30,882 bases of DNA from the IMG/VR virus record IMGVR_UViG_3300025816_000050, positions 1 to 30,882 of that record; one strand, written 5' to 3'. Positions 9,666 to 30,522 of this stretch are shown piece by piece. The stretch is from a virus. The notes beneath the pieces are model-generated. The model was not told the DNA's origin, made no database searches, and saw nothing but the letters and a program-made list of their open reading frames with translations. How positions within the stretch are numbered: the first letter of the stretch is position 1; each line of letters starts with the position of its first letter. The position numbers were made by a program, and so were the translations under genes.

Positions 9666-10446
9666 AATAACCTCTCTGTATTAAAAATTCATTTACCCAT
9701 TTTTCTAAAGACATGTTTTTATACTTAGTTATAATTGATTCGCTTAAATACATATTTAAATCATAGTTATTTTTTTCTACTTTATCTTCTTTAACATCAT
9801 GATACATTCCATCTAAAACACTATCATCATATTTAATATTGTTTATAGAAAATTGTTCTAAATCAACATACCTATGTTTGTAGGTTGGAATATTTAAAAA
9901 TTTGTAAATGCGTTTTATATATTTTTTAGGATTTATTGTTAAGTCTTCATAATTAATTTTTATATGATCGTTATCATTTTTAATAATGTTATGTATAGCA
10001 TAAGAATTAACAGCAGTCATGCCTTCAGTCATTTCATAAAAACAAGAATCTTCTAAATCTTTTTTATTCCAATTTTTTACTCTAGCAAGAGAGCCTAATA
10101 TTTCTATAAAAGGTCTTTCTAAAATAATAAATTTTGGATTTGGAGCAATATATTTTTTTATAAGTTCTATATTCTTAGGTGTCCCCCAAGGACTTCTATC
10201 AATAATATGATCACTTTTATAATCTTTAAAATATAGTTCTAAACTACCTTCTATTAAATTATTTAATGATTGATAGTCAGGGAAGTTTTTAAAATTTGTT
10301 GTTTCTTTAAGTTGTTCAAGATTATATAAAATGTCTGCTGTAATAGAATTAGCAGTAACACTTATGTTTGGGTTTTGGTTTAATATGGATGCAAGCAAAG
10401 TATTTCCACATCTAGGCAAACCGCATAAAAAGTAAATATTTTTCAT
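9655..10446 (-). CDS. sulfotransferase-family protein
   Basis: This 263-residue protein matches the PAPS-dependent sulfotransferase fold. The 5'-phosphosulfate loop is CGLPRCGNTLLASIL (8-22), DRSPWGTPKNIE (83-94) follows, and the 3'-phosphate site is ERPFIEILGSLARVKNW (110-126). It would move a sulfate group from PAPS to a hydroxyl or amine on sugar, protein or lipid. The gene is more AT-rich than its neighbours, which suggests recent gain. It starts the modification cassette, 56 bases after the glycine-rich adhesin genes, and overlaps the hydroxylase that follows. Substrate is unknown; the virion or host surface is likely. Confidence 0.8.
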   Translation of the reverse strand: MKNIYFLCGLPRCGNTLLASILNQNPNISVTANSITADILYNLEQLKETTNFKNFPDYQSLNNLIEGSLELYFKDYKSDHIIDRSPWGTPKNIELIKKYIAPNPKFIILERPFIEILGSLARVKNWNKKDLEDSCFYEMTEGMTAVNSYAIHNIIKNDNDHIKINYEDLTINPKKYIKRIYKFLNIPTYKHRYVDLEQFSINNIKYDDSVLDGMYHDVKEDKVEKNNYDLNMYLSESIITKYKNMSLEKWVNEFLIQRGYFES

Positions 10447-15957: not shown

Positions 15958-16604
15958 GCTTGTGGTTGTCTCCGTATCTCGTCGTACCTGTATTGGTCTC
16001 TAGTTGATTTAGCTTCACCAAGATTTTTTAATCCTAATAAAGCCTCCTGAAACTTAGATTCGTATGCTGGTATTGCTTCATAATTTTTGAGATACGTGCA
16101 TGCTTCAACTAAACTACCATATAACATGGCATTAGGAGCATTTTTAGACAGCCATGTTGTTTCACTACCTGAAGTGGTAGTAAGTGATGCTGGTCTATAA
16201 TAGTAGTGCAGTTCAACCTCGTAGGCTGAATCTGGGGTGGGTGCGACTATAAAAGTATTGTCGTCAAATTCTGCATAATATTTTGGTAGTCCTGTTGTGG
16301 ACGCATTAGGAGTAAAATCCCTAATGAAAGAAACTTGTTTTAATAGTAAGTAACTATAATTACTGCTACTGTCTATTACAGCTAAACTAAAAGGTGCTAA
16401 ATAGTCAGTAGGGCATTCTAAGTATGGTCCTGAAGCTGTTAAGTCACCAACTTGATTTTTTCTAAAATCGTCTAATTGTACATTTTTAAATATACGTTCT
16501 TCTGTTGTTGAGATAAACGTGGGTAGGTTAGTAACAAAACTAGACTCTGTGCTTTCCAGGTAGTCTTGTATAGCTGTTTTTAAAGTTGTGTACGTAAAAC
16601 TCAT
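15954..16604 (-). CDS. head-tail adaptor protein
   Basis: This 216-residue protein begins SFTYTTLKTAIQDYLESTESSF and contains STTEERIFKNVQLDDFRKNQVG, a pattern of the podophage adaptor (SU10-type) family. A middle part FDDNTFIVAPTPDSAYEVELHYYYRPASL forms a beta sheet, and the C-terminal part is helical (YESKFQEALLGLKNLGEA). It likely forms part of the ring below the portal. Translation is coupled to both neighbours by four-base overlaps. Confidence 0.75.
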   Translation of the reverse strand: MSFTYTTLKTAIQDYLESTESSFVTNLPTFISTTEERIFKNVQLDDFRKNQVGDLTASGPYLECPTDYLAPFSLAVIDSSSNYSYLLLKQVSFIRDFTPNASTTGLPKYYAEFDDNTFIVAPTPDSAYEVELHYYYRPASLTTTSGSETTWLSKNAPNAMLYGSLVEACTYLKNYEAIPAYESKFQEALLGLKNLGEAKSTRDQYRYDEIRRQPQA

Positions 16605-25776: not shown

Positions 25777-27294
25777 TTAATAATAACTTATTTTTCGTTT
25801 AGGATATAGCTCTTCGTCTTCATAGTCACTGGGTAGTTTTACAAATCCACCTTGCCTAAAACGTAATAGTGCTTGAGTGGTTGAGTCTACTAAGTCATCA
25901 TGATCACCAGCAGGAAACATCGCACATTCTTCTATAACGTCGTGTGCCCATTTAGTATCAGGTGCCCAAACCATACCTGACTCAAATAAAGGTGCACTTG
26001 CGTTTACTCTAGCTACTTTATCATTGCCTTTGCTTGGAGTAAAGTTTTGTACAGGTATACCTATATTTCGTAATTCTTGTGTTAGGGGCATACCACTTGC
26101 TTTACCTTCTATAATAGTTACGTCAGGTTGCCATTCGTGATATTGTTCTAAGGCTATAGCTTTTAGTTCAGGAAAACTGTACCTACCTTTTATAGCGTCT
26201 AATAAAATAATGTGTGGAGCTGTACCGTCATAGTAATTTTCACCTAGACTACCTTCTGGGTAAAATACTCCCCAAGTAGTAATAGCTGAATAGTCTGCCA
26301 TTTCACGTTTTAAAAATGCAGTATCGTAACTTTGTATTAAATATTCGCAACGTGGTGGTTTTTCATTAGTCCACTCTTGCCACCACTCACGTTTTATTAA
26401 GGCACCTTCTTCTGAACTAGGGTTCTGCATGTATTGAGCGTGCCATTTAGGACCACCCCTTAACGTAGCTTGTACACTTTCTAGTTCTTCTTTTGACCAA
26501 TACTCTGGCCATAGTGGGTCACCACTAGGCAATATAGCAGGAAGCTCAATAAGTTCCCATTGATCTGCTTTAGGATCACGAGCCATATCTTTTAAAAGTC
26601 TACCTGTTAAATCGTTAACGTTCCAACGTGTCATAACTATAACAATGGCACCTCCTGGCTGTAACCTTTGCCTTGGACCAGAAGTATACCACTCATACGT
26701 ATCTTCCATAGACTTAGGGTTTAATGCGTCTTGTTCTGAGTGAGGGTCATCAATAATAAATAAGTCCGCACCACGTCCCGCTAACGCACCACCTACACCA
26801 GCAGCATAGTACTCGCCCTTTCGTTTTGGGTCACGTTTATCTTGAGTTTCCCATTTACCTGCTGCTTTTGAATCTGGGTTAATGAGTACGTCAGGGAATA
26901 TTTTTTGAAAGTCTTCCGTTAACATTAAGTCCCTAATTTTTCTACCAAACTTAACTGCTAGGTCTGCGGTGTGAGTGGCTTGTAGTATTTTTAAACTTGG
27001 GTTACGCCCTACTAAATAAGCAGGAAAATAATGTGAAGCAAATTCACTCTTCGTGTGCCGTGGTGGCATATTAATAATAAGCCTTTTAATTTTACCTCTT
27101 GCTATACGGTCAAAAGCATCTGCCATTTTAGCATGGTGTGCACCAGCTATAAACTGTGGCCACTGACTTTTAACAAAAGTTATAAATTCATTTTGACAAG
27201 TTTCAACACGTTCTATTTCTGCTAACCTTTCAGTTAGTTCTAAATGTTCTTTGAGGACATCCTCAGGAAGTTGATCTAATAATTCTTTTTTCAA
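25777..27294 (-). CDS. terL: large terminase subunit (TerL)
   Basis: This 505-residue ATPase/nuclease packages DNA. The Walker A-like loop is NMPPRHTKSEF (75-85), Walker B LFIIDDPH (178-185), and motif III VMTRWN (220-225). The C-terminal RNase H-like nuclease shows D324 in SYDTAF, E396 in IIEGKASG and D466/D467/D470 in GDHDDLVDS. The start is TTG at 27294, two bases after the upstream stop; no ATG lies near. Translation is probably coupled. Length and motif spacing are typical of the Terminase_6 type. Confidence 0.93.
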   Translation of the reverse strand: MKKELLDQLPEDVLKEHLELTERLAEIERVETCQNEFITFVKSQWPQFIAGAHHAKMADAFDRIARGKIKRLIINMPPRHTKSEFASHYFPAYLVGRNPSLKILQATHTADLAVKFGRKIRDLMLTEDFQKIFPDVLINPDSKAAGKWETQDKRDPKRKGEYYAAGVGGALAGRGADLFIIDDPHSEQDALNPKSMEDTYEWYTSGPRQRLQPGGAIVIVMTRWNVNDLTGRLLKDMARDPKADQWELIELPAILPSGDPLWPEYWSKEELESVQATLRGGPKWHAQYMQNPSSEEGALIKREWWQEWTNEKPPRCEYLIQSYDTAFLKREMADYSAITTWGVFYPEGSLGENYYDGTAPHIILLDAIKGRYSFPELKAIALEQYHEWQPDVTIIEGKASGMPLTQELRNIGIPVQNFTPSKGNDKVARVNASAPLFESGMVWAPDTKWAHDVIEECAMFPAGDHDDLVDSTTQALLRFRQGGFVKLPSDYEDEELYPKRKISYY

Positions 27295-28666: not shown

Positions 28667-28797
28667 TTACCTTGCCCTCGATACTTTTTACGTCGTTGAT
28701 TTTTATTCGTGCCTGCTCCGTGGCTCATGCGTGAGTTACCTATAGACGTCTTCTTTTTGACATGCTCTATTCTTTCTTTTGACCACTGTTTAGGCAT
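28663..28797 (-). CDS. conserved small basic phage protein (44 aa)
   Basis: ATG at 28797 opens a 44-residue frame MPKQWSKERIEHVKKKTSIG... ending KNQRRKKYRGQGK. KKTSIGNSRMS and the KKYRGQGK end form a recognisable conserved tiny phage protein. It overlaps its upstream gene by eight bases and the downstream gene by four. Highly basic; role unknown. Confidence 0.75.
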   Translation of the reverse strand: MPKQWSKERIEHVKKKTSIGNSRMSHGAGTNKNQRRKKYRGQGK

Positions 28798-29134
28798 TAC
28801 GGTTTAGTTTAAACTCTTTACGAGCATTAGCCAAGTGTTCTCTATTTTGCATAATTAGCACAGGGACCACGGTCGAGTTTCCACCTTCATCGGGATGTGA
28901 CCAAAACCACTCTGCTTCAGGGTACTCATCTGCTAGTTCGTGTGCCGTGGACTCTAGGACTTTGCGACACACCGTGCTATGAACTTTGAATAAAATAGCA
29001 GGATACTTGTCTAGTTCGGTATATAGCTCACGGACTAAAGGCTCTGAATAATGTAGTATGGGTATTTCTCCGTTGTCAAAGTGCTTTAGACTAAAAGGGC
29101 AAACCTCAGTTATTGATTTCAAATAGTCTCTCAT
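28790..29134 (-). CDS. hypothetical protein (114 aa), first gene of the late operon
   Basis: This 114-residue protein has EIPILHYSEPLVRELYTELDKYPAILFKVHSTVCRKVLESTAHELADEYPEAEWFWSHPDEGGN: mixed helices with many acids and aromatic residues, no known motif. It is the most upstream gene of the minus-strand operon, so a promoter is expected within 29140-29260, but none is convincing. Its function cannot be told. Confidence 0.6.
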   Translation of the reverse strand: MRDYLKSITEVCPFSLKHFDNGEIPILHYSEPLVRELYTELDKYPAILFKVHSTVCRKVLESTAHELADEYPEAEWFWSHPDEGGNSTVVPVLIMQNREHLANARKEFKLNRNA

Positions 29135-29297
29135 AGCTAAAAAATTTTGCAGTAAAAATTTTTAGTAGGAGTCCCTTTCCGCGTCATACTCAGTATTTTA
29201 TAGTGACTGACCTAAAAGTAAAGTTTATAGTAAACGGCTCTTCTGATTATTGACGCAGGCGTTACGCTATGCATAGTTGCTATAAAGGGGGGTGGGG

Positions 29298-29367
29298 GGT
29301 GGCACAGCGGACTACTGGAGGACTGTTGATTTGTAGCAGCTGTTACGTCCGTTATAGCTGTGCCACC
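29298..29367. repeat. 70-bp inverted-repeat structure with nested stem
   Basis: Arms GGTGGCACAGC (29298-29308) and GCTGTGCCACC (29357-29367) are perfect complements over 11 bp. Just inside, CGGAC (29308-29312) pairs with GTCCG (29347-29351), leaving a TTATA bulge. The 34-base loop contains an imperfect palindrome GTAGCAGCTGTTAC. It follows directly on the G-rich tract. It could form a cruciform or a structured RNA; strand and function are unknown. Confidence 0.75.
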
Positions 29368-29388
29368 TGTCTTGTCTGCGTTTGCATC

Positions 29389-29445
29389 TCCCGCGATAGC
29401 GGGATCTGTGTCCCGCGAAGCGGGACGATCTGTCGCGGACGCGAC
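29389..29445. repeat. three GC-rich hairpins with GATA, GAA and GGAC loops
   Basis: Three hairpins lie in a row: TCCCGC-GATA-GCGGGA (29389-29404), GTCCCGC-GAA-GCGGGAC (29410-29426) and GTCGC-GGAC-GCGAC (29432-29445). ATCTG spacers separate them. The second contains GCGAAGC, known from literature as an extraordinarily stable DNA mini-hairpin. The design recurs 700 bases to the right. Confidence 0.8.
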
Positions 29446-29451
29446 GCGATC

Positions 29452-29536
29452 AACCGCTCGGGTTACGGGCGTAGTAAGTACTTACTAACCTAAAGTAAGT
29501 ACTTACTTACGTATAAAAGTCGTAACCGCTCGGGTT
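29452..29536. repeat. two direct copies of a 13-bp repeat flanking the twin palindromes
   Basis: AACCGCTCGGGTT occurs at 29452-29464 and again at 29524-29536, start to start 72 bp. The copies bracket the two 16-bp palindromes. They are the only strong direct repeats seen here and might be binding sites or the edge of an inserted segment. Confidence 0.7.
29472..29508. promoter_or_regulatory. twin 16-bp palindromes 21 bp apart (operator-like)
   Basis: TAGTAAGTACTTACTA (29472-29487) and AAGTAAGTACTTACTT (29493-29508) are both perfect palindromes sharing the 12-bp core GTAAGTACTTAC. Their centres are 21 bp apart, two helical turns, so dimers would bind on the same face. An imperfect 22-bp dyad with 8-bp arms (29547-29568, TAAAATAA...TTATTTTA) follows with a related GTAC centre. 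They lie upstream of the plus-strand gene and probably bind a regulator. Confidence 0.6.
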
Positions 29537-29599
29537 TAAAAGGCGTTAAAATAAGTACGTTTATTTTAGTATATAACGGTTATAAGCCTATATATTTAG

Positions 29600-29605
29600 T
29601 ATAAT
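29600..29605 (+). promoter_or_regulatory. candidate -10 element for the plus-strand small gene
   Basis: TATAAT at 29600-29605 is a perfect -10 hexamer, 68 bases before the ATG. No TTGACA-like -35 lies 16-18 bases upstream, as expected where CA and TG are absent from the DNA. It would start a leader that includes two TTTTTTAACTA repeats and ends with the AAAAGG ribosome binding site (29659-29664), eight bases before the ATG. Low confidence without experiment. Confidence 0.4.
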
Positions 29606-29672
29606 TACCTTAGTTATTAAATAAAGGGCGTTTTTTAACTACTTTTTTAACTAGCCCTAAAAGGTAAATAAT

Positions 29673-29981
29673 ATGACTAAAACTAATACTAAAAAAGCTA
29701 CTACTAGCGTTACTACTAACGTTACTAACGTTATTACTAAAGATAATATAGGTACTATTAACCCTATATTAACTTTTAATAATAAAGGGCGTTTAGCTAC
29801 CGCTAATAGTAATAGGGCTAGTAGCGTAAACGGTAAAACGTTTAAAGACGCGTTAGCTATTTATACTAACGCTAAAGCGTTAAACCCTAATAACCCTAAG
29901 TTAAAACCGTTAAGGGCTTTAACTTACGATATATTTAAAGTTAAAAGTTTAAGCGTACCTAAAGGCTATACGCTAGGCTAA
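29673..29981 (+). CDS. small protein of the island (102 aa), paralogue of the 74-aa gene
   Basis: This 102-residue protein begins MTKTNTKKATTS and is rich in Thr, Asn, Lys, Ala and Leu; it has no His, Gln, Cys, Trp or Glu and no Met except the first. It aligns with the minus-strand protein at 30298-30522: both begin with TNTKKAT and share LTF, NKxR, an RA-VxG-T core, ALxYD and KSL. The DNA lacks CA and TG almost entirely. AAAAGG precedes the start and a strong terminator follows. The conserved C-terminal half could be a small helical DNA-binding domain; no function is known. Confidence 0.8.
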   Translation: MTKTNTKKATTSVTTNVTNVITKDNIGTINPILTFNNKGRLATANSNRASSVNGKTFKDALAIYTNAKALNPNNPKLKPLRALTYDIFKVKSLSVPKGYTLG

Positions 29982-29992
29982 TAACCTAACCT

Positions 29993-30021
29993 AAAGGGCT
30001 AGTTTAACTAGCCCTTTTTTT
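29993..30021 (+). terminator. intrinsic terminator of the plus-strand small gene
   Basis: AAAGGGCTAG (29993-30002) pairs with CTAGCCCTTT (30008-30017) over ten bases with a TTTAA loop; seven Ts end at 30021. It starts 12 bases after the stop codon. Part of the 3' arm (TTTAACTAGCCCT) recurs in the leader before the gene at about 29646-29658. Confidence 0.88.
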
Positions 30022-30060
30022 ACGCCTAAAATAAATTTAAAGATTTTAATCATATATACA

Positions 30061-30256
30061 GGGATCGTGATCCTAGGGCGACTGACCTGCTTCCTGGAAT
30101 CTGGGCTTCCTGGGATCTGTGAGGTGTGTCCGTCGCCGAAGGCGACGGATCCTGGATCTTGGTGCGTCGCCGTCAGGCGACGCTCCTGGTTCCTGGGATC
30201 TGGTTCCTGTCTTCTGTTGTCGTCGCCGAAGGCGACGATCCCGATCGCGATCTAAT
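30061..30256. repeat. hairpin and GATC-rich repeat region between the two small genes
   Basis: Three hairpins: TCCGTCGCC-GAA-GGCGACGGA (30129-30149), GCGTCGCC-GTCA-GGCGACGC (30164-30183) and TCGTCGCC-GAA-GGCGACGA (30220-30238). Between them are degenerate TCCTGG(G)ATCTGG units. About nine GATC sites lie in roughly 190 bases. Open frames here have no codon bias and are judged spurious. Confidence 0.8.
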
Positions 30257-30264
30257 GGTCAGGG

Positions 30265-30292
30265 ATAAAAAGAGGGGAGCCGAAGCTCCCCT
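30265..30292 (-). terminator. intrinsic terminator with UUCG loop of the 74-aa gene
   Basis: On the minus strand the RNA folds AGGGGAGC-UUCG-GCUCCCCU followed by CUUUUU. It lies six bases after the stop. The core GGGAGC-UUCG-GCUCCC is identical to the terminator behind the capsid gene. GGTCAGGG (30257-30264) can also pair with CCCTGACC (30289-30296), giving an alternative, mutually exclusive fold. Confidence 0.88.
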
Positions 30293-30297
30293 GACCG

Positions 30298-30522
30298 TCA
30301 GCCTAGCTTTAAGGACTTGATTTTATTCAAGTCGTATTTTAAAGCTCGCTCCTTTAAGCCGAGCGTCTTATAGTGCTCTATAGCCTGTTCGTAGGTCATA
30401 CCTTGAACGGCTTTAGCTCGTTTGACGTTGTGCTCGGCGCGAGCTTTATTAGGGACGAAGGTCAACGTTTGAGCGTTGACTTTAGGAGCTACGGATTTAG
30501 TAGCCTTTTTAGTATTAGTCAT
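30298..30522 (-). CDS. small protein of the island (74 aa), paralogue of the 102-aa gene
   Basis: This 74-residue protein MTNTKKATKSVAPK... has LTFVPNKARAEHNVKRAKAVQGMTYEQAIEHYKTLGLKERALKYDLNKIKSLKLG as its conserved part. It aligns with the plus-strand 102-residue protein but contains His, Gln, Glu and Met that the other lacks. A strong ribosome binding site GGAGG lies five bases before the ATG, a good promoter lies 30 bases farther and a UUCG terminator follows, so this is a complete single-gene unit. Basic and helical; DNA binding is possible, not shown. Confidence 0.8.
   Translation of the reverse strand: MTNTKKATKSVAPKVNAQTLTFVPNKARAEHNVKRAKAVQGMTYEQAIEHYKTLGLKERALKYDLNKIKSLKLG

Follow-up and report, generated by a model that had tools for sequence, protein, structure and literature searches.

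A gene unit cleared of TS dinucleotides in HTVC023P-type marine phages, probably exempt from the phages' own predicted thymidine modification

In a stretch of 30,882 nucleotides from an uncultured virus (IMG/VR record IMGVR_UViG_3300025816_000050, positions 1 to 30,882; referred to as the window), a single small gene is almost devoid of the dinucleotide TS, i.e., of T followed by C or G, on both strands, together with its putative operator, promoter, leader, and terminator. We consider it likely that this island is a transcription unit which was selected free of the phage's own TS modification, with transcription as the most likely purpose. According to the mechanism we propose, selection would strip TS from this one unit, which would stay unmodified while the remaining genome gets modified. 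A bulky modified T would hinder bacterial RNA polymerase; the TS-free gene, hereafter copy 1, would be open to transcription by the host polymerase without further help, be it from completely modified virion DNA or at a late stage of infection, and an ordinary paralogue would be read less well from modified DNA.

Counting the dinucleotides between positions 29453 and 30050 returned no CA (35 expected), one TG (29), three TC (31), and five GA (33), which sums to 9 compared to 128.5 expected (log10 binomial p of about -48), and CG, GC, AC, and GT each lie above their expectation. This one TG belongs to the start codon at 29673. An earlier note on this DNA had described the same pattern from the letters alone, i.e., absent CA, a single TG in the ATG at 29673, TC and GA reduced to about eight, and common CG, GC, AC, and GT, and the recount agrees in all these points. 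The sliding-window ratios which it had proposed confine the depletion to the neighborhood of the island: of all 598-nt stretches across the window, the one starting at 29461 shows an observed/expected ratio (O/E) of 0.08, and none with a start outside 28700-30300 falls below 0.77. The parts of the unit and the neighboring features are listed in the following:

29459..30042, no strand assigned: TS-free island in its best-fitting bounds (584 nt, 7 TG/TC/CA/GA sites), with homologous islands in relatives
29473..29486, no strand assigned: operator-like palindrome AGTAAGTACTTACT, copy 1 of 2, conserved in several clades ahead of both paralogues
29494..29507, no strand assigned: operator-like palindrome AGTAAGTACTTACT, copy 2 of 2, on the same basis
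29600..29605, plus strand: TATAAT, candidate -10 element without TS, assigned by its match to the consensus
29659..29664, plus strand: candidate ribosome-binding site AAAAGG, assigned from the sequence
29673..29981, plus strand: copy-1 open reading frame, 102 amino acids, 5 TS observed, 5 being the minimum possible for the protein
29993..30021, plus strand: intrinsic terminator AAAGGGCTAGTTTAACTAGCCCTTTTTTT, with the island ending 21 nt further
30298..30522, minus strand: copy-2 paralogue, 74 amino acids, 37 TS with a minimum of 15 and 41.7±4.0 in random versions, hence ordinary
25777..27294, minus strand: terminase large subunit (TerL), context marker for HTVC023P-type relatives

As the source is a metagenome contig from an uncultured virus, an artefact or a chance composition has to be weighed, but its probability is negligible given the p-value above and the occurrence of islands in about 20 contigs of diverged sequence from different metagenomes. 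An assembly error, which the earlier note had named as a way in which its observation could fail, is ruled out because seven independent IMG/VR loci follow the same rule, each over 587-633 nt, including locus L007, in which it is obeyed although the leader is largely unalignable.

Since CA and GA are TG and TC, respectively, read on the opposite strand, the four depleted dinucleotides constitute one missing motif, TS, that is lacking on both strands. Across the 2,960 nt of noncoding DNA in 12 islands, all four are found at 0.01-0.08 of expectation (observed/expected: CA 2/143, GA 5/156, TC 11/135, TG 3/147), and the remaining dinucleotides are all enriched except AT. The depletion is strand-symmetric and extends over leader, gene, and terminator, just as the earlier note had put it, and this points to double-stranded DNA as the level at which the rule acts, not to RNA or codons. 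The bounds are equally informative: the island starts 5-24 nt 5' of AGTAAGTACTTACT in 10 of the 12 islands (the palindrome falls just beyond the island in G010, and none was found in G008), and it ends 6-21 nt past the terminator T-run wherever such a run was found. As these limits track operator and terminator, the island can be regarded as a transcription unit; the palindrome itself is a putative operator, a function suggested by its conservation 5' of both paralogues in several clades. The island is flanked in the window (29270-29458 and 30043-30300) by GC-rich intergenic DNA that contains numerous small hairpins as well as repeats with GATC, and the relatives are similar in this respect.

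Sequence comparisons indicate that the island is kept by purifying selection on the dinucleotide and not by inheritance or deamination, because the low TS number persists through many substitutions, most of which are transversions. While random synonymous versions of the window's copy 1 contain 47.6±5.0 TS, the natural gene contains exactly the synonymous minimum of 5, and in G001-G006 the TS number likewise equals the minimum. In other lineages, observed and minimal numbers are 6/5, 7/5, 11/8, and 19/11, the latter in the loosest copy 1 (G008/G009), compared to 38-50 in random synonymous genes. Relatives separated by 70-97 substitutions still have 6-8 TS, whereas a random placement of the changes would give 40-51. 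Between the window and locus L003, the island differs by 16 transitions and 54 transversions, with A/T exchanges as the commonest, and the flanks show the reverse, with transitions outnumbering transversions about 2:1. This bears directly on a mutational origin, i.e., a deamination of cytosine after T or before A as in fungal RIP, which would end in exactly this rule and would fit the TA/AT ratio of 118/40 in the island. It is nevertheless highly improbable: transversions prevail within the island and not outside, an excess of C-to-T changes was not observed, the limits run sharply from operator to terminator, the protein is preserved intact, nearby paralogues in the same genomes are ordinary, and the process would have hit essentially one unit per genome. 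Thus, of the two processes suggested in the earlier note, selection against a recognized site is strengthened, as the site can now be named as TS and is matched by enzymes, and C-to-T change is weakened by the dominance of transversions.

The 102-residue protein has no usable match in Pfam, PHROGs, PDB folds, viral folds, annotated phages, or bacterial genomes, and in our searches its family was found only in marine phage contigs. A small beta-alpha-alpha-alpha-beta domain is predicted for it (pLDDT 85.6), and our guess is that it may be an early DNA-binding regulator. Many genomes encode two adjacent paralogues and often a third one located elsewhere; copy 1 is the TS-free paralogue, and copies 2 and 3 are ordinary, with copy 2 only a few hundred bases away. 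Copy 2 is encoded on the strand opposite to copy 1 in the clade of the window (30298-30522) and in tandem in other clades (L033, 6001-6234). The comparison of homologues proposed in the earlier note revealed an island at copy 1 in about 20 related contigs, about 420-630 nt long and weaker in one group (L106, L108-L112). G032 shows the same TS-free/ordinary arrangement in a tandem pair of paralogues that belong to a more distant type, G031 carries an island on a distant family member, and the island of G034 is limited to the promoter. No island was detected in the one-copy contigs G011, G013, and G015, which are short. In the phylogenetic tree, copy-1 genes fall into 3-4 groups, and a single clade is not rejected, with a p-AU of 0.08 from few alignment columns, so that copy-1 genes may have arisen once or repeatedly; a second tree run for the origin of copy 1 inadvertently took in one row of the third paralogue.

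In the phages M6, ViI, and phiW-14, hypermodified T sits at TG/TC as judged by restriction analysis (PMC6449724), and purified 5-hmdU DNA kinase has the same TS context (PMC7653180). The relatives of the window are HTVC023P-type phages, with 65-67% DNA identity to HTVC023P/HTVC027P/psg01 over terminase and portal, and for some HTVC023P-type pelagiphage clades thymidine hypermodification genes are described in an earlier report (PMC9599517). A HMUDK_hel gene, a TAGT glycosyltransferase, and a ThyA-like enzyme were found close together in all eight long family contigs tested (in the relative G002: PF18723, E 3.6e-46; PF20691, 4.7e-20; PF00303, 3.4e-22), the latter being a candidate dUMP hydroxymethylase (PF00303, 8/8). 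HMUDK_hel (aG/PT-PPlase1, PF18723) is present in nine family contigs. None of the three enzymes was found in either HTVC023P or psg01, which lack both the gene family and the island. As the 31 kb of the window do not include the genome half with the cassette, its tie to the cassette runs through close relatives, and the gene pair TS and aG/PT-PPlase1 known from clades V, VIII, and IX (PMC9599517) was found in its island-bearing close relatives G002 and G005. These phages share both phage type and predicted hypermodification genes with those clades; in the accessible part of that report, the enzymes are described without mention of TS-poor promoters, of a gene free of TS, or of paralogues one of which is recoded.

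Hence, the phages appear to modify their own thymidines at T before C or G, with the TS specificity carried over by homology of one component. They resemble the M6/ViI-type systems in having a ThyA-like enzyme and HMUDK_hel, and the dinucleotide avoided here is the one modified there. They differ in that a TAGT glycosyltransferase lies beside HMUDK_hel and in that the P-loop 5-hmdU DNA kinase PF18748, which was detected in M6 as control, was found in none of eight family contigs. The missing PF18748 implies a chemistry different from that of M6, and we did not assign the phages to the M6/ViI type; as a guess based on the TAGT enzyme, the final base might be a glycosylated 5-hmdU. A UDP-glucose/GDP-mannose dehydrogenase-like gene in G002 (L038, 18023-18859) might provide the sugar for this enzyme.

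The rule can equally be stated as a ban on A 3' of C or G, and avoidance of sites is a familiar force, so that another agent reading the same dinucleotide, e.g., a host nuclease or a Mom-like adenine modification at S-A, could be responsible. We regard this as quite improbable, since such an agent would be expected to act genome-wide and not on a single unit, and since T-modification genes occur in every adequate family contig. An island is furthermore not a general property of T-modified phages: none was found in M6 and Sonora, cultured phages with modification genes that were searched whole or nearly so, in the more distant SBSphiC and Ab19 (first 50 kb), or in the HMUDK contigs G033 and G035. 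There is accordingly no general need for an island, and the solution is lineage-specific. It also counts against an exemption from the phages' own modification that most of the remaining genes need to be transcribed although they carry no island.

Transcription is favored as the purpose of the exemption because the island is a transcription unit, because a modified template cuts the output of RNA polymerase, and because TS-poor promoter-like windows recur. Treatment of a template with 5-HMUDK (phosphorylated 5-hmdU) reduced the output of E. coli RNA polymerase to 37% of the natural and 10% of the 5-hmdU template (PMC6457204). This in vitro transcription switching resembles the situation proposed here in that modified T lowers the activity of bacterial RNA polymerase, but the template was artificial and no natural gene escaping modification is known from that work. 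Within the phage genomes, the TS-poorest 100-bp windows in many HMUDK loci recur at two distances from the enzyme gene, one about 5.4-5.8 kb upstream of it and the other 8.1-8.9 kb downstream; they lie beside gene starts and in intergenic DNA and look like promoter regions. HTVC023P, psg01, and M6 contain no 100-bp window with an O/E of 0.3 or less. The A/T-run bias of promoters was considered as a cause of these secondary windows and rejected, as it is not seen in HTVC023P and psg01, an imperfect control given that the intergenic layout there differs (70 bp compared to about 400-540). In G002 (35710-36214), a divergent intergenic region that spans about 500 bp in HMUDK phages and about 70 bp in HTVC023P/psg01 contains a TS-poor stretch.

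The main alternative to transcription is packaging or replication: the island might be unmodified for a reason at the DNA level, e.g., as a packaging start, a replication origin, or a nuclease site beside the terminase gene. It does lie near TerL in these genomes, the G002 and G007 contigs end within it, and G017 has a scaffold gap at its place. Still, we judge this unlikely: the bounds track operator and terminator, the open reading frame is conserved and coding, further TS-poor stretches exist elsewhere at probable promoters, and the contig breaks may stem from paralogues and strain mixing. The breaks themselves are located at G002 1 and 62172 and at G007 16023-16100, G002 bearing two different copies, one at each contig end, and in G017 a run of N (10198-10207) stands where copy 1 would be expected.

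Hypermodification of phage DNA is usually seen as an armor against restriction enzymes. The recoding of one unit down to the lowest number of modification sites theoretically possible implies that this armor comes at a cost within the cell, and that the phage spares particular DNA from being modified. Selection against a short recognized DNA site is shared with restriction-site avoidance in phage genomes; here, however, what is avoided is a site of only 2 bp, the predicted target of modification by the phage itself, and it was cleared from one unit instead of the genome. In a literature search of limited reach, we came across no account of a TS-free, modification-exempt gene, in line with the earlier note, which knew of no described example. 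A cleared dinucleotide can serve as a readout of modification context from sequence alone, and it predicts a modified base in uncultured phages. The natural pair of an exempt and a non-exempt gene moreover makes the transcription of hypermodified phage genomes by the host polymerase directly testable. We give an even chance to the more specific idea of a bootstrap gene, i.e., a regulator gene kept free of the phage's own modification site from operator to terminator, which the unaided host RNA polymerase would transcribe from fully modified DNA and whose ordinary paralogue would respond to the modification state. If true, phage DNA modification would act as a switch of gene expression that is encoded in the choice of codons.

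A minor observation concerns the last TS site of the unit. In a single contig (G042, 24949-25227, minus strand, locus L213), neither ATG, GTG, nor TTG occurs close to the beginning of the copy-1 frame, and an ATT codon 3' of AAAAAGGGG is a candidate TG-free start, as though the last TS site had been lost as well.
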